Shown here: one piece after another, positions 20,685-42,309 of the stretch | Layout: the number at the start of each line of letters is the position of its first letter | Numbering within the stretch: position 1 is the stretch's first letter | Origin: SAR86 cluster bacterium | Lineage (GTDB): Bacteria > Pseudomonadota > Gammaproteobacteria > Magnimaribacterales > AG-339-G14 | Reading direction: 5' to 3' | NCBI GenBank assembly: GCA_028140145.1 | Contig: JAOIOC010000005.1 | Location: forward strand, 19,433-83,432 | Length of the DNA: 64,000 bases | Notes under the pieces: generated by a model | Told to the model about the DNA's origin: nothing | Databases searched by the model: none | What the model saw: the letters and a program-made list of their open reading frames with translations, nothing else | Position numbers and translations under genes: made by a program

Positions 20685-22355
20685 ATGTCTAAAAAAAGAA
20701 AATATTCATCCTCTCTGGTTGATGGAATTGATCAAGCTGGTGCTCGGTCAATGCTTAGGCCAACAGGTTTTTCAGATGAGGATTTTAAAAAACCACAAGT
20801 CGGTATTGCTTCAACTTGGTCAAATGTGACTCCTTGTAACATGCACATCAATGAATTAGCACAAACCATATGTAGCTCTGTTGATGATGCAGGGCTCAAA
20901 TCAGTTCTTTTCAATACAATCACAATTTCTGATGGTATTTCAATGGGTACTCTTGGCATGAGATATTCGTTGGTTTCTAGAGAGGTCATTGCAGATTCAA
21001 TTGAAACTGTTGTTGGGTGCCAGTCATTTGATTCCGTTGTAGCAATAGGTGGATGCGATAAAAATATGCCAGGTTGTATGATGGGATTGATAAGGTTGGA
21101 TAGACCAAGTCTATTTGTTTACGGTGGTTCTATCAAGCCTGGGAAGGATCATACTGATTTTGCCACTGTTCTTGAAAAGGTTGGCGCATATTCTCAACAT
21201 CAAATAAGTGAAGAGGAGCTAATAGCAATTGAGAAAAATGCACTCCCTGGACCTGGTTCATGCGGAGGAATGTACACTGCAAACACTATGGCATCAGCAA
21301 TTGAAGCCTTAGGAATGAGTTTGCCTGGAAGTAGCTCACAAGATGCAATCTCTCAGGAGAAGAAAAATGATTGCCTGGCTGTAGGTCAAGCTATCGATTA
21401 CTTATTAGAAAAGGATATTAAACCTAGCGATATTCTAACCAAGAGCGCTTTTGAAAATTCTATTAAAGTAGTTATTGCACTAGGCGGCTCTACTAATGCA
21501 GTCCTTCACCTCCTAGCAATGGCAAAATCAGCAAATGTTGATTTAAATTTAGACGACTTTACCAGGATAGGGAAAAATACACCTGTTTTATCTGACATCA
21601 GGCCTTCTGGTTACTATTTAATGAGTGATCTGAATGAACAGGGCGGTATTCAACCCTTAATGAAAATGATGCTTAATGATAGATTGCTGGATGGAAGTTG
21701 TATGACTGTTTCAGGAAAAACTTTAGAAGAAAATCTTAAAGACATAGAACCCTATAAAGACGATCAAAAAATTATTGCTCAAATTAGTAAACCTATAAAA
21801 AAAGAAAGTCATATTAGAATTTTGAAAGGTAATCTAGCTCCTCAAGGAGCTGTAGCTAAAATAACTGGGAAAGAAGGACTGTCTTTTTCTGGTCCTGCAA
21901 TAATTTTTGAATCTGAAGAAGAGGCAGTTGAAGCAATTTTCAAGAATACCATTCAAGAAGGTTCGGTAATTGTTATCAGATATGAAGGTCCTGTAGGAGG
22001 CCCAGGCATGCGTGAAATGCTAAAACCGACTGCGGCAATCATGGGAGCTGGACTAGGAGATAAAGTTGCTCTAATTACTGATGGAAGGTTCTCAGGTGGA
22101 TCTCATGGTTTTGTAGTTGGGCATATTACCCCTGAAGCTGCGAATGGAGGTCCTATTGGACTCTTACAGAATGGAGATTTAATCACTATAGATGCAAAAA
22201 AAGATCAAATAAACATTGATATCTCAGAAGAACAGTTAGCAGATAGAAAGAAAAACTGGCAATCTTTAAAAGAACCTCCCAGCAGAGGAGTGTTAGCTAA
22301 ATACGCCAGATCAGTGTCTTCAGCTTCCGAGGGCGCTGTAACAGACGATTTTTAA
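20685..22355 (+). CDS. ilvD: Dihydroxy-acid dehydratase (IlvD)
   Basis: IlvD dehydrates dihydroxy acids to the 2-keto acids of valine and isoleucine synthesis. The 556-residue protein has the family's iron-sulfur cysteines in [13 protein letters not shown] and [15 protein letters not shown], and the third near STPCNMH ([11 protein letters not shown]). [11 protein letters not shown] and [21 protein letters not shown] are diagnostic. Length and spacing resemble the shorter [2Fe-2S] type; that subtype is inference. The ilvBHC cluster is about 10 kb away in the same orientation. Confidence 0.96.
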
Positions 22356-22356
22356 T

Positions 22357-22386
22357 TTGCATTTTTAAAATTTAACCTAATATAAA
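22357..22386 (+). promoter_or_regulatory. Candidate trxA promoter
   Basis: TTGCAT, an 18-base spacer and TATAAA lie just before trxA; an overlapping TAATAT at 22378 is a second -10 choice. Either puts the 5' end at or within a few bases of the ATG at 22391, so the mRNA would be leaderless or nearly so. Confidence 0.4.
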
Positions 22387-22390
22387 AATC

Positions 22391-22711
22391 ATGAGCAAAA
22401 CTATAGAACTAAATAAAGAAAACTTCACAGAAACGGTTGGTTCAAATAAACCTGTTTTAGTCGATTATTGGGCAGAATGGTGTGGTCCATGCAAAATGGT
22501 AGCTCCAATACTTGAAGAAGTTGCTTCAGATATGTCAGATAAGCTGACGGTTGGAAAAGTTGACGTGGATGAAAATCAAGAATTAGCAGCCCAATTAAAC
22601 ATAATGAGCATTCCTACGTTAGTACTATTTAAAGATGGAGAGGTGGTTGATCAGGCGATAGGTGCTTTATCAAAGTCTCAGCTTCTATCCTTTTTGGAAC
22701 AACACCTATAA
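22391..22711 (+). CDS. trxA: Thioredoxin 1
   Basis: This is a cytoplasmic disulfide reductase of 106 residues, close to the E. coli size. It has the active site WAEWCGPCKM at residues 27-36, the buried Asp region (VDYWAEW), KVDVDENQELAAQ, and the cis-proline loop IMSIPTLVLFKDGE. It stands before rho, the order also known in E. coli. No thioredoxin reductase gene is present in the window. Confidence 0.97.
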   Translation: MSKTIELNKENFTETVGSNKPVLVDYWAEWCGPCKMVAPILEEVASDMSDKLTVGKVDVDENQELAAQLNIMSIPTLVLFKDGEVVDQAIGALSKSQLLSFLEQHL

Positions 22712-22735
22712 ATTTTACCTAGACTAGGGCTAACT

Positions 22736-22758
22736 AAGGTGTTAAATTTATTCACCTT
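22736..22758 (+). terminator. Hairpin between trxA and rho
   Basis: AAGGTG and CACCTT form a six-pair stem around an 11-base loop in the trxA-rho gap. No good T-run follows, so it could be a weak terminator, an mRNA end-protecting hairpin, or part of a rho leader. Rho autoregulates in its leader in E. coli, but I see no specific match to that. Confidence 0.35.
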
Positions 22759-22795
22759 GTCTTAGACAATCTTTAATTAAATCCCAAAATTTGTT

Positions 22796-24058
22796 ATGCA
22801 TTTAGGCGAATTAAAAGCCAAGCCCGTAGAAGAATTGCTCAGTCTTGCTGAGGACATGGGTATTGAAAATTTAGCCCGCTCAAAAAAACAAGATGTTATT
22901 TTTGGAATTCTCAAATCTCATTCTGGAAAAGGTGAAGATATTGAGGGCGAGGGAGTTCTTGAAATTTTAAATGATGGGTTTGGATTTTTGAGATCACCGT
23001 CGTCTTCTTATTTAGCAGGTGCTGACGACATATATGTTTCACCAAGCCAAATAAGAAGATTTGGACTCAAAACAGGTGATTCTATATCTGGAAAAATAAG
23101 ACCACCAAAAGAGGGCGAGAGATATTTTGCCTTGCTGAAGATTGATGAGATCAACTTTAATGCACCAGAGCAAACGAAATCAAAAGTTGCATTTGAAAAC
23201 TTAACACCTTTGTTTCCTGAAGAAAGAATCGTGATGGAGGCAGGAAATGGAACAACTGAAGACTTATCAGCAAGAATAATTGATCTAACTGCCCCAACAG
23301 GTAAGGGTCAGAGAGGACTTATCGTTTCTCCACCCAAAGCAGGAAAAACTCTTCTTCTTCAAACCATCGCTCATTCAATTGAAAGGAATAGCCCTGACAG
23401 CAAGCTCATGGTTCTTTTAGTTGATGAAAGACCTGAAGAGGTTACTGACATGAAACGTTCTGTTCGAGGGGAAGTAATCGCTTCTACCTTTGACGAACCT
23501 CCATCAAGACATGTTCAAGTAGCTGAGATGGTAATTGCCAAAGCCAGAAGACTTGTTGAAACAAAAAATGATGTCATTATTTTGTTAGATTCAATCACTC
23601 GTTTGGCAAGAGCTTATAACTCTACTCAAGCAGCTTCTGGGAAAATATTAACAGGTGGTGTTGACGCTAATGCCCTTGAAAAACCAAAAAGATTTTTTGG
23701 TGCTGCCAGAAATATTGAAGGTGGAGGAAGTCTCACCATTATTGCCACAGCGCTCATTGACACTGGATCGAGAATGGACGAAGTAATTTACGAAGAATTT
23801 AAAGGTACTGGAAATCAAGAAATTCATCTTGATAGAGCAATTGCTGAAAGGAGAGTCTTTCCAGCTATCAACATAAGACGTTCAGGCACAAGAAGAGAAG
23901 AGCTCATAACCGATGATGCCGAACTTCAACGAATAAATATTCTAAGAAAGCTTCTCAATGATATGGAAGATGTCGATGCAACTGAATGGCTGATAGACAA
24001 ACTTGGAAAACACAAGACAAACAATGAATTCTTCAGTTCAATGAAGAAAGGAAAATAA
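22796..24058 (+). CDS. rho: Transcription termination factor Rho
   Basis: Rho is the hexameric RNA helicase that ends transcription at C-rich untranslated RNA. The 420-residue protein matches E. coli Rho in length. It has the N-terminal helical domain ([38 protein letters not shown]), the RNA-binding cold-shock-like domain ([16 protein letters not shown]) and Walker [24 protein letters not shown] and the Q/R-loop region follow. Its stop directly abuts the stop of convergent rsmD. Confidence 0.98.
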
Positions 24059-24628
24059 CTATTTTTCTTTGAGAAGCAGATATTTCTTCCTGCCAGAGTT
24101 AGTCTCTTTTATAACCTCCCAATTATTTTCTAAAAACCTTAAGTCTAGATCTTTTTCTACTTCAAGATAAATATTTCCAGATTTAGCAAGAAGAGATTTT
24201 GTTTTAATTTTTAAAAGAACTTTTTCAGCAAGTTGTTCATAGAATGGAGGATCAACAAAAATTAGATCAAATTCATCATTTGCTTCATCTAACCAAGTAA
24301 GGACATCCTTATTATTTATAGATATATCCTCAAAAGCATCTAGCTTTTTGAGATAGCCTTTCAATTTGTCAAAGTGCTCAAAATTTTTTTCTACAAATGT
24401 AACTTTTTGAGCTCCTCTAGACAATGATTCCAATCCTAAAGAACCTGTCCCAGAAAATAAATCAAGACAAGTCTTCCGATCAATGACCTGTCCAAGCCAA
24501 TTAAATAATGTTTCCCTGAGTCTATCTGGAGTTGGTCTAAGATCATTAGAAGGTGAGAATTCGAATTTTCTTCCTTTGTATTTTCCACTGATTATTCTAA
24601 ATGAACCTTTATTTGCTTTATTGCTCAT
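24059..24628 (-). CDS. rsmD: 16S rRNA (guanine-966-N2)-methyltransferase RsmD
   Basis: RsmD methylates G966 of 16S rRNA. The 189-residue protein has FRIISGKYKGRKFEF, the substrate motif RPTPDRLRETLFNWLG, the SAM motif DLFSGTGSLGLESLSRGA and the catalytic FDLIFVDPPFYE. Length is typical. In many gammaproteobacteria it neighbours ftsY or coaD; here it stands alone, divergent from the flavin reductase gene and tail-to-tail with rho with no spacer. Confidence 0.95.
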   Translation of the reverse strand: MSNKANKGSFRIISGKYKGRKFEFSPSNDLRPTPDRLRETLFNWLGQVIDRKTCLDLFSGTGSLGLESLSRGAQKVTFVEKNFEHFDKLKGYLKKLDAFEDISINNKDVLTWLDEANDEFDLIFVDPPFYEQLAEKVLLKIKTKSLLAKSGNIYLEVEKDLDLRFLENNWEVIKETNSGRKKYLLLKEK

Positions 24629-24666: not shown

Positions 24667-25125
24667 ATGCAAGATATATTTCTAAATATTTTAAGAACGC
24701 AAGCTCAAACTGTATATGTAATTTCTTCAGGAAATTCAGATTCGAAAGAGGCAATGACAGTTTCTTCAGTAGCATCGTTATCAGCTGATCCACCAAGGAT
24801 GCTAGTTTGCATTAATAAATCTGCTGCCATGCATGATTTTTTAAAAACAACTCAATCTTTTTGTCTTAATTTATTAAGCAATGGACAAAAACATGTAGCT
24901 GATATTTGTAGCAACTCAGAGAAAATAAATGAAAGATTTTCAAATGATTCTTGGCTTAATAAGCAAGAGACACCATATTTAGAAAATGCTCAATCAAACC
25001 TCTTCTGTAATTTAAAAGAAATTATGGAAGACACAACTCACTCAATCTTCGTTGGCGAGGTTCAAGATTTAATTCATAATGACGCTTTAAAACCCTTGGT
25101 ATATCAAGAAGGAAAATATGTTTAA
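24667..25125 (+). CDS. Flavin reductase domain protein
   Basis: This 152-residue protein resembles the FMN-binding flavin reductase family (HpaC/ActVB type), which reduce free flavin with NAD(P)H to supply a partner monooxygenase. Supporting strings are the early Thr/Ser-rich EAMTVSSVASLSADPPRMLVCINKSAAMHDFL and FCLNLLSNGQKHVADICS, standard for this split-barrel fold. No partner monooxygenase is beside it. A TATAAT at 24639-24644 sits 22 bases before the ATG. The DUF4399 gene overlaps its end by eight bases. Confidence 0.8.
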   Translation: MQDIFLNILRTQAQTVYVISSGNSDSKEAMTVSSVASLSADPPRMLVCINKSAAMHDFLKTTQSFCLNLLSNGQKHVADICSNSEKINERFSNDSWLNKQETPYLENAQSNLFCNLKEIMEDTTHSIFVGEVQDLIHNDALKPLVYQEGKYV

Positions 25126-25516
25126 GTTTCTTTATCTTTTAATTTTTGTTTTATGCTCAAACCTGGCATTTTCAGGCGAGAATAAACTTTATTTTATTGA
25201 GCCTAAAGATGGTGCAACTCTAAATGGGCCTGTAAAAATAGTTTTTGGGTTATCTGGAATGGGAGTGGCTCCAGCTGGAATAGATTTTCCTAATACTGGG
25301 CATCATCATCTTCTTGTAGATTTAGAAGATTTGCCTGACCTTTCGAAACCTATCCCCGCTAATAAAAATCATATTCATTTTGGCAAAGGTCAAACTGAAG
25401 CAATCCTTGAATTACCTAAAGGAAAGAGAACCTTGCAACTGTTAATGGGCAACTATCTTCACATTCCACACAAAGAGCCATTAATTTCAGATAAAATTAC
25501 AATCTTTATTAAGTAA
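25118..25516 (+). CDS. DUF4399 secreted protein
   Basis: The 132-residue protein has a signal peptide (FKFLYLLIFVLCSNLAFSGE) and one small domain with the DUF4399 pattern. That pattern is FIEPKDGATLNGPVKIVFGLSGMGVAPAG, the His-rich TGHHHLLVDL, NHIHFGKGQTE and the C-terminal LLMGNYLHIPHKEPLIS. The conserved histidines suggest metal binding, but no activity is known to me. It is tucked between the flavin reductase and the first DUF5916 protein, 18 bases upstream of the latter, suggesting one transcript. Confidence 0.8.
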   Translation: MFKFLYLLIFVLCSNLAFSGENKLYFIEPKDGATLNGPVKIVFGLSGMGVAPAGIDFPNTGHHHLLVDLEDLPDLSKPIPANKNHIHFGKGQTEAILELPKGKRTLQLLMGNYLHIPHKEPLISDKITIFIK

Positions 25517-25534: not shown

Positions 25535-27883
25535 TTGATTTACCAAATCTTAAAATTTAAGAAAAAATTATTTATTTTTTTCTGCTTACTCACTTTATCT
25601 AACTTTTCAGTAAGTGAAATTTTCATAGATGGAATTCTTGATGAAGAGCAATGGAGCTCAGCTAAACTCATTGATGACCTTGTAATCGTTCAGCCAAATA
25701 CCTTAGAGAAATCAAAATACAAAACCGAGGTTTTATATTTTGCCAACGAAAAAGGAATTTATTTTGGTTTTAAAAATTTTAAACCTCCAGAAAGACAAAC
25801 GCCGATTCAACATAAGCGGGATGCATGGATGGCAGACGGAGATAGAAATTTCATCATCATTGATTTTGTTGGTAATGGTAACAATGGATACTCTTTTGGA
25901 ACTTCTTTAGGAGATTCGGTTGGCGACGGCACTGTATCAAATGAGAATCAGTTCAATCAGGATTGGGATGGGGTGTGGTTTGTCAAAACCAGTCAAGATG
26001 GCGAAGCTTGGTACTCTGAATTCTTGATACCTTGGGATGTAGCACCTATTAGTTCTTCTACCGAAGATGAACTAGAAATAAAAATTAGAATAAATACTTT
26101 CGATTTTCTCAGTAATGAATGGTCAAGTTTTCCTGCTATTTGGAGCACCGATTCAGCCTTTTTATCAAAATTTGAACCTATAAGAATTAAGAATTATGCC
26201 CGTGATGCTCAAAGTGATGCTGACTTCTACCCATACATTTCAATTTCACAAGAGCAAGTTACAGACGAGCAAATAAATAAAATAGGTGGAGAAATATTTT
26301 GGTCGATAGATGCTGAAAAGAGATTAGATGTAACTATAAATCCTGATTTTGGCCAAGTAGAAAGCGATGATGTTATTGTTAATTTTGATTCAACAGAGAC
26401 TTATTATGAAGATAGGAGGCCGTTCTTCACTGAAAATCAAAACTTATTTCAAATAACTGGCTGGAGAACTTATCTAATAAATACAAGAAGAATTGGAGCA
26501 GCACCAGATTATGATTGTAATCAGCTTAGCGAACGATTAGTTGAAAAATGTCTTCAAGATAATTCATCTACAAGCGATATTGACCTTGCTCTAAGATATA
26601 CCCAATCAGGAGCACTTAACGAGTTTGGTATCTTCTCTGCTTTTGAAAGAGGAACGGATATTTATAAAGGAAGAAATTTCCAAGCTATTCGCTACAGAAG
26701 AAATTTTAATGCAGGGAAGGTAGGCTATCTTCTAACTTATGCAGATAAACCAAACATTTCAAGGAGCGCTCAAGTACACACTTTTGATTACGAATATTTT
26801 ATTAATCAAGATACTCGTTTTTTTGGAATGTTAAGTTACTCAGATATTGATGATCCTAATTTATCCAAGAATGGATCTGCAATAAGAGCTCTTATCTCGA
26901 AACAATTTACAAAAAAATTCTCTGGTTTATGGGCTTTCTCATCTTATGGCAAAGGATACGACATTAACGATATGGGTTACAGTGAAATGAAGGAATATAT
27001 GTCAACTGGATGGGTAGCAAACTATAGAGAAGCTGAATTTGCTGAAAACTCTCCTCTCCAAAGTTTGACTGTTGACTCGAACGGTGGATTTAATAAAAGT
27101 GCCTCAGGAATATACGGCGGGTCTTTAGCTAATGTGAGTTTAAGTCTAGATTTTAAGGATTTTTCTTCTGTAAGACTGAGCTGTGAGTGTTTTCTTGATG
27201 CCGGTAAAGATTATATGGAAACGAGAGGTTTCCCAGATGCACCTTATATAAGAAATAAAGGAGGATACACCTTTGCTATTAGCTATGAGGCACCTGAGAC
27301 TCTTGTATTTATTCCCTCAATGAAGGTGGAAAGTAGATCATCAGGATATGAATTTGATGATTCTTTGCTATCGAGAAAAGAGGAAGGTTGGGGTTTTAAT
27401 TTGGGCGCAACTGTAAAACCAACAGATAATCTTAATATTAATTTGGGTCTAATTAGATATGACGAGGATGAAAACTGGAGTAAATTTGAATACGACAACG
27501 TGTTCGGTTACTACCATAAGAAGAAACTCTCATCCTCTTTATCTTTAGGGTATTATGAAAGAAAGCATGAATTAAGAATAAAAGCCCAGTTTTACTCTTT
27601 AACTGCAGAAGATCCCGAAGCTTTCTTTGTATCACCTGAAGGAAAAATGAAGTTCGCTGATGCAAACCTAAATTCATTCGAGTTGAGCCAAATGGCATTT
27701 CAAATCAGGTATAGGTATGAGTTGGCACCTCTATCTCATATATATGTGGTCTACACTAGAGGTGGAGATTATTTCAGCTCTGATATGTCCTCATCATCAT
27801 TTGATAAGCTTTATACAAAAGGATGGGATACAACATACTCGGATCAATTTATTGTAAAAATAAGGTACAGATTTTCATCGTAA
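25535..27883 (+). CDS. CBM9-like/DUF5916 outer-membrane-type protein, copy 1
   Basis: This 782-residue protein begins at a TTG and has a signal peptide (KKKLFIFFCLLTLSNFSVS). An N-terminal carbohydrate-binding family 9-like domain follows (EIFIDGILDEEQWSSAKLID; VLYFANEKGIYFGFKN; DWDGVWFVKTS; FLIPWDVAPI), then the DUF5916 region with NPDFGQVESDDVIVNF and RPFFTENQ. The C-terminal half is rich in alternating aromatic strands and ends YSDQFIVKIRYRFSS, which looks like an outer-membrane beta barrel. CBM9-type domains bind glycans; whether this one does is unknown. It is a tandem paralogue of the next gene. There is no TonB plug domain. Confidence 0.82.
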   Translation: MIYQILKFKKKLFIFFCLLTLSNFSVSEIFIDGILDEEQWSSAKLIDDLVIVQPNTLEKSKYKTEVLYFANEKGIYFGFKNFKPPERQTPIQHKRDAWMADGDRNFIIIDFVGNGNNGYSFGTSLGDSVGDGTVSNENQFNQDWDGVWFVKTSQDGEAWYSEFLIPWDVAPISSSTEDELEIKIRINTFDFLSNEWSSFPAIWSTDSAFLSKFEPIRIKNYARDAQSDADFYPYISISQEQVTDEQINKIGGEIFWSIDAEKRLDVTINPDFGQVESDDVIVNFDSTETYYEDRRPFFTENQNLFQITGWRTYLINTRRIGAAPDYDCNQLSERLVEKCLQDNSSTSDIDLALRYTQSGALNEFGIFSAFERGTDIYKGRNFQAIRYRRNFNAGKVGYLLTYADKPNISRSAQVHTFDYEYFINQDTRFFGMLSYSDIDDPNLSKNGSAIRALISKQFTKKFSGLWAFSSYGKGYDINDMGYSEMKEYMSTGWVANYREAEFAENSPLQSLTVDSNGGFNKSASGIYGGSLANVSLSLDFKDFSSVRLSCECFLDAGKDYMETRGFPDAPYIRNKGGYTFAISYEAPETLVFIPSMKVESRSSGYEFDDSLLSRKEEGWGFNLGATVKPTDNLNINLGLIRYDEDENWSKFEYDNVFGYYHKKKLSSSLSLGYYERKHELRIKAQFYSLTAEDPEAFFVSPEGKMKFADANLNSFELSQMAFQIRYRYELAPLSHIYVVYTRGGDYFSSDMSSSSFDKLYTKGWDTTYSDQFIVKIRYRFSS

Positions 27884-27957
27884 AAATAGTTAATAAACTA
27901 ATCAAAAATATTCATAACTTCCAATAAAAAATATATAAGTTAATCTGACTTCAACAT

Positions 27958-27986
27958 TGATCATATGATTTCAGATAAAATATCAT
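27958..27986 (+). promoter_or_regulatory. Candidate promoter of DUF5916 copy 2
   Basis: TTGATC, a 17-base spacer and TATCAT lie in the 159-base gap between the two paralogues. The predicted start is about 50 bases before the ATG. It suggests the second copy can be expressed on its own. Confidence 0.4.
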
Positions 27987-28042
27987 CTTTGATAGGTTAA
28001 TCTTTTTTCAGATTTACACCAGTGCTATGCAAAGCATTCAAT

Positions 28043-30352
28043 ATGGTTAGAAAATTAATACTTTTATTTTTATTTGCACCGCTATCTGCAGAGATTATTG
28101 TTGATGGCAAATTAAATGAAATTGAGTGGGATTCTGCAGGAGTCATTGATACTTTTTTTGTTACCGAACCTCTAACTTATGCAATTCCAGAAGTTGCAAC
28201 TGAAGTTTTATATTTTGCTAATGAGGATGGAATATATTTTGGGTTTAAAAATTATGAACAAACTATAGAGGATCAAACAACATTGCTGCATAAAAGGGAT
28301 GTTATGGATGCATCAGCAGATAGAGCATTCATTGCAATTGACTTTAATGGAAACGGTATAAGAGCATATAGTTTTTCAGTTACTTTGGGCGGATCTATCA
28401 GTGATGCAGTTTGGGCAAATGAAAATCAACCGTCATTAGACTGGGATGCAATTTGGTTCGTTAAAACATCTCAAACCGACTATGCTTGGTTTGCTGAGTT
28501 CATGATTCCATGGGATGTTGCTCCATTGGAATACTCAGATGAAGAATTTATTGAAGTTAATGTCAGGACGTCTAGAGGTTATTTTTTAAAAAACGAATGG
28601 CACGGTTTTCCAAAAATCAATTGGACTGATACAAAATTTATCTCAAGATTTCATCCAATAAAAATAAGAAATTTTGCTAAAAAATCTGCCTCGGACGTCG
28701 ATTTCTTCCCATACATTTCAGTTTCTCAGGAAGAGGTTACAGGAAAACAGGAAAATAAAATTGGAGGAGAAATATTTTGGGCTATCGATTCAGAAAAAAG
28801 ATTAGACGTCACTTTAAATCCTGATTTTGGCCAAGTAGAAAGCGATGATGTCATTGTGACTTTTGATGCAATAGAGACTTTTTACGAAGATAAACGACCA
28901 TTCTTCACAGAAAATCAGGATCTTTTTCAAATAAGAGGTCGAACTTCTTTTCTGATCAATACTAGAAGAATTGGTGCTCGACCAGACTATGATTGTTCTT
29001 CAGAGATAGACGAATCAGATTGTAATTCGCAAAGAAAAACCTACAGTGAAATTGATTTAGCCTTGAAATATACCCAGACTGAAGCTAGTGATGAATTCGG
29101 AATTTTCTCAGCTTTTGAACGAGATGGAAAATACTATAAAGGAAGGAATTTCCAGTCTATTAGATACAGAAAAAGTTTAGACGATCTTCGTATTGGCTAT
29201 CTTTTAACTTATGTTGATCGTCCAAACATATCAAGGGCTGCCCAAGTCCATACAATGGATTTTGATTATTCCTTCGATGCAACAAGCAGATTTTCAGGGA
29301 CGTTAAGTTATTCAAACATAGATTCAGAATCAACCTCAACCGAAGGTGTTGCTCTAAGAGGTAGAGTGGCTAGAAACTTTACAGAAAAATTTTCCGCTCT
29401 TTGGGGTTTTGGTATTTATGACGAAGGCTATGACATGAACGATATGGGTTATTTGGACATGAGAAATTTTGCAGAAACAGGCATTACAGCCGTTTACAAA
29501 GAAACCAATTTCTCAGAAGAATCTCTTGTTAGAAGTCTTACATTGGATGTGAATGGCGGTCACCAACGAAGCATATCAGGAATAAACGGCGGGATGATGG
29601 CGTGGATATCACTTAATTTAGATCTTAAGGATTTTTCTTCAATAGATATTTTTTGTGAATGTATCTTATCTCCTGGAAAAGATTTTGTTGAAGCAAGAGA
29701 TCATCCGGATTCTCCTTTTATAAGAAGGTTAGGGGGATACACATTGAACATGAGATATTCGGCACCTAGACAGAAGACTTTCATACCCTTCATAAAAATT
29801 GAAAGTTCATCTGGAGGTTATAAATTTGATAATCCATCAAATTCTAAAAGAGGTGAGGGTTGGGGATTCAACATAGGTGCAAATATTAAGCCCTCTAATG
29901 ATCTCGACTTAAATCTTGCTCTCATTAGATATGATGAATATGAAAATTGGGCTAAATATGAATTTGATAATGTATTTGGCTATTACAAAAAGAAGAAATT
30001 ATCTTCCTCTCTATCTTTAGGATGGATTAAAGACAACGTTCACGAATTAAGAATTAAAGCTCAATTTTATTCACTCACTGCTGATGATCCAGATCCTTAT
30101 TATGTTAGTTCGGATGGAAAAATGGTTAATTATGATGGGTCACTTAATCCATTTGAATTAAGTCAGGTCGCATTTCAAATAAGGTACAGATATGAACTAT
30201 CTCCTCTTTCTAATTTTTATGCAGTTTATACGAGAGGAGGATATTATTTTGACGACGATAAAGATTTAAAATCTTTTGGAGATTTGTATTCCACCGGATG
30301 GGATACTACTTATTCTGATCAATTAATTCTTAAACTGAGATATAAATTTTAA
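28043..30352 (+). CDS. CBM9-like/DUF5916 outer-membrane-type protein, copy 2
   Basis: I start at the ATG at 28043 (MVRKLILLFLFAPLSA, a clean signal peptide) instead of the GTG seven codons upstream. The 769-residue protein has the same layout as copy 1: CBM9-like domain (EIIVDGKLNEIEWDSAGVID), DUF5916 core (NPDFGQVESDDVIVTF, RPFFTENQ, INTRRIGARPDYDC), and a barrel-like C-terminal half ending YSDQLILKLRYKF. That is a terminal Phe as recognised by the BAM complex. Many 15-20 residue stretches are shared with copy 1, so this is a tandem duplication followed by clear divergence. Function is unknown. Its stop interlocks with that of the convergent PP0621-like gene. Confidence 0.82.
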   Translation: MVRKLILLFLFAPLSAEIIVDGKLNEIEWDSAGVIDTFFVTEPLTYAIPEVATEVLYFANEDGIYFGFKNYEQTIEDQTTLLHKRDVMDASADRAFIAIDFNGNGIRAYSFSVTLGGSISDAVWANENQPSLDWDAIWFVKTSQTDYAWFAEFMIPWDVAPLEYSDEEFIEVNVRTSRGYFLKNEWHGFPKINWTDTKFISRFHPIKIRNFAKKSASDVDFFPYISVSQEEVTGKQENKIGGEIFWAIDSEKRLDVTLNPDFGQVESDDVIVTFDAIETFYEDKRPFFTENQDLFQIRGRTSFLINTRRIGARPDYDCSSEIDESDCNSQRKTYSEIDLALKYTQTEASDEFGIFSAFERDGKYYKGRNFQSIRYRKSLDDLRIGYLLTYVDRPNISRAAQVHTMDFDYSFDATSRFSGTLSYSNIDSESTSTEGVALRGRVARNFTEKFSALWGFGIYDEGYDMNDMGYLDMRNFAETGITAVYKETNFSEESLVRSLTLDVNGGHQRSISGINGGMMAWISLNLDLKDFSSIDIFCECILSPGKDFVEARDHPDSPFIRRLGGYTLNMRYSAPRQKTFIPFIKIESSSGGYKFDNPSNSKRGEGWGFNIGANIKPSNDLDLNLALIRYDEYENWAKYEFDNVFGYYKKKKLSSSLSLGWIKDNVHELRIKAQFYSLTADDPDPYYVSSDGKMVNYDGSLNPFELSQVAFQIRYRYELSPLSNFYAVYTRGGYYFDDDKDLKSFGDLYSTGWDTTYSDQLILKLRYKF

Positions 30353-30537
30353 TGATCTTTACAGATCCAACCTCTTGATGTTTTTCTAGCTTCTAAGGCA
30401 GGGAAATAAACATTGCATTCTATACATTTGACCATGCTGGATTGATCTTCACTGATATCAACTGAACTTTCTCCCAAAAGACGTGCAAGCCCAACGACTA
30501 TTCCTACAAAAATTAAAACTGAAATTAAAATAGCCAT
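30349..30537 (-). CDS. PP0621-like small membrane protein
   Basis: This 62-residue protein has one N-terminal membrane segment (MAILISVLIFVGIVVGLARLL) and a small C-terminal domain with three cysteines and a histidine (MVKCIECNVYFPALEARKTSRGWICKDH), probably a metal-binding knuckle. It resembles the PP0621 family, which in Pseudomonas I recall next to bamD and rluD, as here. Function is unknown. Its ATG shares one base with the bamD stop. Confidence 0.75.
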   Translation of the reverse strand: MAILISVLIFVGIVVGLARLLGESSVDISEDQSSMVKCIECNVYFPALEARKTSRGWICKDH

Positions 30538-31310
30538 TAGGATTTAATTTTCTTTTCTTTGAAAGCGTCTAGTAAGGCTTGAGTAATGTTGGCCAGATCT
30601 GACTGGTTGAGTTCTTTATAAGCTTCAATTTTGATCTCAAGAGCTTGTTCTACTTGAGAGCTATTTGGGAGATGTTCAATCACATAATTAGCTCGGTTTA
30701 AGGCTGCAACAAAAGCCTTTCTTTCCATATAGAAAGTCGCTACATATATTTCTTTTTTTGCGATCAAATTCCTCAAGAAAACCATTCGTTGCCTTGCTTG
30801 ATCAGCGTAGTCACTATCTGGGAACCTAAGTAAAAAATCACTCAAGTCGGAAAAGGATTTCTTTGCTTGATTGAGATCTCTTTTCGAGGCCGCATCCTCG
30901 AGAATCATATTCGGATTAAAAATAGACATATCCGCAGTGTAACCAGACATTCCTTTTAAATAGTAGGCATAATCTATATTTGGATGATTAGGATGCAAGC
31001 TGATAAACCTATCAGCGGCTGATGTTGCAGCCTCATAGTTTGCTGATTTAAAATAAGCATAAATAAGCTCTGACTGAGCTTGAGTGGCAAATCTTCCGAA
31101 AGGGTATCTTGCTTCGAGCATTTCTAAGCTCATTGCAGCAGCAGCAAAATTTCCAGATCTCAATCTATTCTGCGCTTGATCAAATAATTCTTTTTCAAGT
31201 AAGACCCTTTCAATAGTTTCTTCTTTATTTGCACATGATGCGGATAAAGCCATCAAGATCAGTAAAAAAAGTAGATTAAAGATAAAATAAAGCCTATTAC
31301 GAGTTTGCAT
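30537..31310 (-). CDS. bamD: Outer membrane protein assembly factor BamD
   Basis: BamD is the essential TPR lipoprotein of the BAM complex that folds outer-membrane barrels with BamA. The 257-residue protein has a signal ending LSASCANKE, with Cys near residue 26 as the likely lipidation site. TPR repeats follow: LFDQAQNRLRSGNFAAAAMSLEMLEARYPFGRFATQAQSELIYAYFK and YYLKGMSGY. RFPDSDYADQARQRMVFLRNLIAKKE is family-typical. The Ser at lipobox -3 is unusual. It is divergent from rluD, the normal neighbour. Confidence 0.94.
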   Translation of the reverse strand: MQTRNRLYFIFNLLFLLILMALSASCANKEETIERVLLEKELFDQAQNRLRSGNFAAAAMSLEMLEARYPFGRFATQAQSELIYAYFKSANYEAATSAADRFISLHPNHPNIDYAYYLKGMSGYTADMSIFNPNMILEDAASKRDLNQAKKSFSDLSDFLLRFPDSDYADQARQRMVFLRNLIAKKEIYVATFYMERKAFVAALNRANYVIEHLPNSSQVEQALEIKIEAYKELNQSDLANITQALLDAFKEKKIKS

Positions 31311-41727: not shown

Positions 41728-42309
41728 TTGGCATATACATTAAAAATAGGAGAAAGAGCTCCAGATTTCAATCTTTTGGGAACTGATGATGTATTTCATG
41801 ATCTATCAAGTTATCGCAAACATGAAATATTAATAATATCTTTTACCTGCAATCATTGTCCTTATGTAATTGGTTCAGATGAAATAACTCGACAAACTGT
41901 TGAAAAGTACAATCGAGAGAGTGTTAAGTTGGTATGTATCAATTCGAACAGTAAAAATACCTATGAAGAAGACAGTTTTGAGAATATGCAAGCTCGCATG
42001 TTAGAGCATCAGTTCCCCTGGGACTATCTTCACGATGAATCTCAGGAGATTGCTTCTAATTATGGAGCTCTAAAAACTCCGCATTTTTTTGTCTTTGATT
42101 CAGAAAGATCATTGATTTATACAGGAAGAGGAATTGACAATCCAAGAAATGGCTCTGAATCAACAATAAATGATTTGGAAAATGCAATTGATGATTATCT
42201 AAGAGGAAGTGACATTGCGGTTCCAGTTACCAACCCAATTGGATGTAATATAAAGTGGGATGGTAAAGATGCCCATTGGATGCCGCCCGCAGCTTGTGAT
42301 TTAATATAA
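41728..42309 (+). CDS. Thioredoxin-like/AhpC-TSA family protein
   Basis: The 193-residue protein starts at TTG (AYTLKIGERAPDFNLLG) and has a redoxin fold with CNHCPYVIGSDEITRQT, a CxxC-like pair, and KTPHFFVFDSERSLIYTGRGIDN near the cis-Pro loop. The C-terminal NPIGCNIKWDG carries another Cys. This subgroup (CNHCPYV) is usually annotated only as thioredoxin family or peroxiredoxin-like. There is no signal peptide, so it is probably cytoplasmic. The substrate is unknown. Confidence 0.82.
   Translation: MAYTLKIGERAPDFNLLGTDDVFHDLSSYRKHEILIISFTCNHCPYVIGSDEITRQTVEKYNRESVKLVCINSNSKNTYEEDSFENMQARMLEHQFPWDYLHDESQEIASNYGALKTPHFFVFDSERSLIYTGRGIDNPRNGSESTINDLENAIDDYLRGSDIAVPVTNPIGCNIKWDGKDAHWMPPAACDLI

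Follow-up and report, generated by a model that had tools for sequence, protein, structure and literature searches.

Comparison of closely related genomes shows, as far as sequence can tell, that the genes for a large predicted surface protein of the DUF5916 family form a locus at which alleles are recurrently replaced among close SAR86 relatives. In the window, by which we mean the whole analysed stretch of 64,000 nucleotides from a SAR86 cluster bacterium, the locus is occupied by a tandem pair of genes, here called a and b. Both the recurrent allele replacement and the variation in tandem copies of DUF5916 genes are described here for SAR86, no earlier report having been found in the literature searched. 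The replacement is visible from genome comparison and not from one genome alone, and it is this main result, rather than the pair singled out in the original prediction, that we regard as the real point of interest.

The gene order at the site is conserved as rho, rsmD, flavin reductase, DUF4399, one to three DUF5916 genes, bamD and rluD. The features of the pair and its flanks are as follows.

24667–25125, plus strand: flavin-reductase-like gene, conserved left flank (PF01613; 99% in the relative G004).
25118–25516, plus strand: DUF4399 small secreted protein, directly upstream; left edge of the exchanged segment (PF14347, E=1.6e-33; 82% in G004).
25535–27883, plus strand: gene a, predicted DUF5916 outer-membrane barrel protein of 782 aa, TTG start (open reading frame; PF19313, E=2.7e-33; AlphaFold2 pLDDT 89.0, pTM 0.84).
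25535–25615, plus strand: signal peptide of gene a, residues 1-27, cleavage placed by eye (sequence; helix 2-21 in the model).
25616–26215, plus strand: N-terminal beta-sandwich of gene a, CBM9-like by family homology (strands in the model; CBM9_1 over the homologous domain in relatives).
26216–27880, plus strand: predicted barrel of gene a, 24 strands by our count (model; Foldseek matches are outer-membrane barrels).
27884–28021, plus strand: a-b intergenic gap of 138 bp, one sigma-70-like match, without enrichment.
28022–30352, plus strand: gene b, predicted DUF5916 outer-membrane barrel protein, 776 aa from GTG, likely start ATG 28043 (open reading frame; PF19313, E=2e-36; AlphaFold2 pLDDT 88.6, pTM 0.83).
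28043–28090, plus strand: signal peptide of gene b, MVRKLILLFLFAPLSA, placed by eye (sequence; helix in the model).
28091–28696, plus strand: N-terminal beta-sandwich of gene b, CBM9-like by family homology (model; CBM9_1 in relatives).
28697–30349, plus strand: predicted barrel of gene b, 24 strands by our count, C-terminal Phe (DSSP strands; F776 nearly invariant).
28817–29050, plus strand: conserved insertion of 78 aa separating barrel strands 3 and 4 (NPDFGQVESDD ... NTRRIG), probable lumen constriction or plug (lowest family variability).
30349–30537, minus strand: 62-aa membrane protein with CxxC motif, convergent, right flank (open reading frame).
30537–31310, minus strand: BamD/YfiO, conserved right flank (PF13525, E=1.5e-62; 98% in G004).

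In the window's genus (g1) the gene is bordered by DUF4399 and bamD. Genus g3 has a single copy at this site and family f2 has one to three, and the gene is found elsewhere in g2, g4, f3 and f4. At 41728–42309 of the window, a small gene is strongly variable among close relatives (69-90%, most neighbours being above 90%).

The two back-to-back large paralogues of the original prediction are present as open reading frames, their coordinates agreeing exactly with those given there, and are 57-58% identical to each other; each protein has a hydrophobic, signal-peptide-like N-terminal segment, and the DUF5916 core proposed for both is borne out by PF19313 scores of 116 and 126.3 bits against a Pfam cut-off of 22.6. 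No further DUF5916 gene was found in the genome from which the window comes, which is 71.5% complete. The true start of gene b is probably ATG 28043, because the relative G007 carries a stop codon upstream of the equivalent position and its gene begins there. The candidate promoter claimed for gene b did not hold up: the gap contains one sigma-70-like site (9/12, at 27957–27986), but the region has 17 such sites where 26.8 are expected by chance. A tandem-duplication scar, ATTTCAGATAAAAT, common to the a-b gap and the 3' end of DUF4399, was considered and not established, as good a local alignment score arising in 34 of 500 shuffles for the window, in 8 of 500 for G005 and in more for G001 and G003.

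Confident AlphaFold2 prediction shows the fold class of both copies to be an N-terminal domain followed by a large outer-membrane barrel. Structure prediction had been proposed as a check, with a soluble protein lacking a barrel as the adverse outcome, and both models are large outer-membrane barrels of high confidence; the barrel-like C-terminal half foreseen earlier in fact fills about 70% of each protein. The strand number is a reading of the DSSP strings of the two models, from which we take the barrel to be closed. The strands are joined alternately by turns of 2-8 residues and by mostly longer loops, and the N and C termini lie on the same side. By the usual rule for outer-membrane barrels, this alternation would place both termini in the periplasm, and the N-domain is likewise probably periplasmic. 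The 78-residue insertion (residues 266-343 of b) is the most conserved part in the SAR86 family, with a variability of 0.54 compared with 0.81-0.91 elsewhere and with NPDFG invariant across 64 sequences, and it probably folds into the barrel lumen.

The N-domain is in both models a beta-sandwich of about 200 residues directly after the signal peptide. Its earlier description as CBM9-like is supported by family homology, since 15 of the 64 family members aligned match CBM9_1 (PF06452) at E<=0.01, the best at 1.2e-10, but not by a direct profile match in a or b, even at E<=1. Among eight matching members viewed singly, seven were above the Pfam cut-off, and the match always lay over the homologous N-domain.

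The closest description of the pair is the Pfam family itself. DUF5916 (PF19313), often found with CBM9_1, shares with a and b the layout of N-domain and barrel and the NPDFGQ(V)E motif, and the match covers the family's barrel region above the cut-off; the family has no established function. This agrees with the original prediction, no paper in the literature searched mentioning DUF5916 or PF19313, and no solved structure matching by sequence. Foldseek gave mainly outer-membrane barrels with modest TM-scores of 0.40 or less, the best match being MtrB (6r2q_B, E=1.4e-7 and 1.4e-8), followed by TonB receptors, LptD and AlgE, while a search of PDB chains by sequence gave one chance-level match at E=0.4. 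MtrB-type and other large barrels are similar to a and b in size and strand number, MtrB having 26 strands, but the pair has no multihaem cytochrome among its neighbours (DUF4399, flavin reductase, BamD), in addition to the low TM-scores and the missing sequence match. TonB-dependent transporters also combine a large barrel with an N-terminal domain, and one of them is also exchanged in G004; they differ in that the N-domain of a and b is a beta-sandwich and the barrel has 24 rather than 22 strands. No Pfam match to the Plug domain or the TonB-receptor barrel was found in a or b at E<=1, nor to Porin_1, Porin_4 or Porin_O_P at the same level, and among 64 relatives a single weak Porin_4 match was found (E=0.0097).

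A DUF5916 gene is present in 168 of 203 genomes of the SAR86 order and in 37 of the 40 good ones, with one to five copies, and the family is also found in Xanthomonadales, Alteromonadales, Bacteroidota, Acidobacteria and Gemmatimonadota. Within the window's genus the a clade and the b clade are each supported at 100/100, so that the phylogeny suggested for dating the duplication shows, on this tree, a split at the base of the genus. The tandem copies of family f2 fall outside the f1 clade and therefore arose separately. Within each clade dN/dS is 0.06-0.11, which indicates strong purifying selection, and dS between a and b is above 2. Having been kept apart under such selection since the base of the genus, a and b are therefore not redundant junk. 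As to the original prediction overall, the pair, its family, the signal peptides and the barrels stand, the separate promoter of gene b is not supported, and the two distinct surface ligands suggested there are a guess. Positive selection within alleles was considered and is not seen gene-wide at these dN/dS values. In six genomes of genus f3g11 (L064, L216-L219 and L221) the DUF5916 frame lacks any ATG, GTG or TTG upstream of or within its signal peptide; an AUU start preceded by a good ribosome-binding site is suggested by a conserved AAAAGGGAGTTTTAAA-ATT, as at L064:7840-7905.

The clearest replacement in the window's genus is seen in G004, where both flanks are 95-98% identical to the window at the DNA level and one gene, as far from a as from b (63-64% identical to either), stands in place of the pair. 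At 4-fold sites this gene is 39-41% identical, compared with 77-98% in the flanking genes except the adjoining DUF4399 gene (67%), and its dS is 2.2 or saturated, against 0.15-0.26. The low 4-fold identity indicates an old allele and not fast protein evolution. The right edge of the exchanged segment coincides with the stop codon of b (about 30350), where identity rises from 82% to 96-100%, and the left edge lies inside DUF4399, identity dropping from about 25150. In a second relative, G008, copy a is deleted and the sole gene, a b allele (91%), lies directly behind DUF4399 and appears to open with the initial codons of a. Over the roughly 200 kb common to G002 and G004, to which this ranking applies, the 150 shared genes have a median protein identity of 98%. 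Those below 80% all encode surface proteins and comprise just both DUF5916 copies and a single TonB-dependent receptor. That receptor (G002:C3:171075-173813, L178) stands against a 27%-identical one in G004 (C1 near 628592, L184). A dehydrogenase and a second receptor beside it are diverged at silent sites, so that a second region of surface-gene exchange is apparent there. In G005 (L039) the left flank corresponding to 20685–24628 of the window has a 4-fold identity of 43-53%, and from the pair rightwards it is mostly about 75-91%, with a recombination boundary near the same place.

The same pattern was found when 40 further loci were added, giving 81 pairs whose flanking genes have a median 4-fold identity of at least 0.70. 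A reciprocal-best comparison with 4-fold identity under 0.5 and protein identity under 80% was counted as swapped, and by this measure DUF5916 genes were swapped in 26 of 119 comparisons, and the remaining genes of these loci in 5 of 972. The swaps fall in four genera (f1g1 6/33, f1g2 1/2, f1g4 2/3, f2g8 17/49), and there were none in f1g3 (14 comparisons, six genomes), in f3g11 (15 comparisons, six genomes) or among three f2g12 and f2g22 comparisons. Since genome pairs share history, we count at least six events and not 26: genera g1, g2 and g4 contribute a single event each, and f2g8 contributes three or more (G028/G180 vs G031/G176 at copy 1, the G034 array of two copies, and G178). Because the thresholds were set after G004 had been seen, independent testing is provided by the cases in g2, g4 and f2g8 and not by those in g1. 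Swap edges are sharp and near gene ends: between G031 and G028 the drop in identity, from 93% to about 65%, comes shortly after copy 1 begins, the signal peptide being kept, and identity recovers by the next copy; between G009 and G041 it drops at the gene start.

An artefact of assembly or binning, in which chimeric contigs or collapsed repeats imitate replacement and copy loss, is very improbable: most of the genomes are incomplete single-cell or metagenome assemblies and tandem repeats are error-prone, but single-contig genomes (G028, 1.59 Mb; G009, 1.19 Mb) show swaps too, as do contigs of 191-758 kb, the swap edges coincide with gene boundaries, and the same alleles are met in more than one genome (G031 and G176, G028 and G180).

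We rather favour the reading that the pair forms wide, constricted channels at a recurrently replaced site, and that the pool of alleles is kept because the proteins are a point of phage contact, nutrient specificity ranking second among the possible drivers. The two paralogues would, after export by their signal peptides, be outer-membrane proteins with a periplasmic CBM9-like beta-sandwich and a barrel of about 24 strands; the channel would be wide and constricted by the 78-residue insertion, with the binding domain at its periplasmic mouth. The conserved neighbours may serve homologous recombination by which the gene is replaced, duplicated or deleted, and through which long-diverged alleles would be brought in. 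Several alleles may thus be kept in SAR86 populations where the protein is met by phages or other surface-recognising enemies. Recurrent replacement by old alleles, with the flanks and most genes untouched, is as selection for surface difference would give. Channel activity and contact with phage or ligand are nonetheless our inference from the family's predicted structure and variation. Porin_1, Porin_4 and Porin_O_P gave no match in eight of nine SAR86 genomes checked, including all five of the window's genus, which leaves a porin-like role open in g1, although unclassified porins could be missed. TonB-receptor matches number 5-12 in each g1 genome and seven or more in the better SAR86 genomes checked. 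A clear Porin_4/Porin_1 match lies at G010:C1:177847-178695 (genus g3).

Simple phage escape is not what the variation resembles. Divergence between alleles is spread over the entire protein and highest in the N-domain (0.45-0.49) and the periplasmic turns, and loop-focused variation, typical of antigenic or phage-driven porins, was not seen. Replacement of whole genes accounts for the spread of the divergence, but gives no direct sign of phage selection. The low dN/dS within alleles, the absence of swaps in f1g3 and f3g11 and the modest TM-scores to known barrels also count against the favoured reading. A PHROGs search for phage-encoded relatives gave no match. The strong divergence of the CBM9-like N-domain would also suit an exchange of substrate niches, in which the alleles pass different oligosaccharides or polymers and are swapped as ecotypes track algal exudates, a and b serving two ligands. 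The other surface gene exchanged in G004, a TonB-dependent receptor, is likewise a nutrient gate, and a and b are kept distinct under purifying selection. We consider this explanation possible but doubtful: genes for polysaccharide utilisation are lacking next to the locus in the window, a conserved-neighbour comparison that included genomes outside SAR86 gave no functional partner recurring across taxa, and two sister species manage with one copy (G008 having lost a, and G004 having a single third allele), which speaks against two ligands.

Still less probable is the absence of any special selection, with the site being merely prone to recombination or allele replacement being common at many SAR86 genes. 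Recombination is evident elsewhere, in the diverged left flank of G005 and in the five swaps of other genes, but those five stand among 972 comparisons at the same loci, the swaps in f1g2 and f1g4 hit the gene at other chromosomal sites, and the outliers among the 150 genes are surface proteins.

Phage contact at a recurrently replaced channel remains our preferred reading, and it has parallels. In bacteria exposed to phages or to immune attack, porins and receptors at the surface undergo allelic exchange, and the DUF5916 locus is like these in the replacement of whole genes between near-identical genomes, in copy-number change and in surface location; it differs in that its variation is not loop-focused and lies in long-diverged alleles, not point-variable loops. 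One study deals with surface genes for phage recognition that lie in flexible regions (PMC3782348).

SAR86 are among the most abundant bacteria of the surface ocean, and were first cultured only recently (PMC11582366). It is tempting to speculate, though we hold it unlikely in this full form, that DUF5916 barrels are a major, hitherto unrecognised phage-contact channel of SAR86, drawn from a long-lived allele pool swapped by recombination and stacked in tandem. Overall, a near-universal SAR86 barrel family with repeatedly replaced alleles is a testable candidate for phage recognition or nutrient specificity, and the findings in SAR86 offer a possible function for DUF5916, a family that extends well beyond this group.
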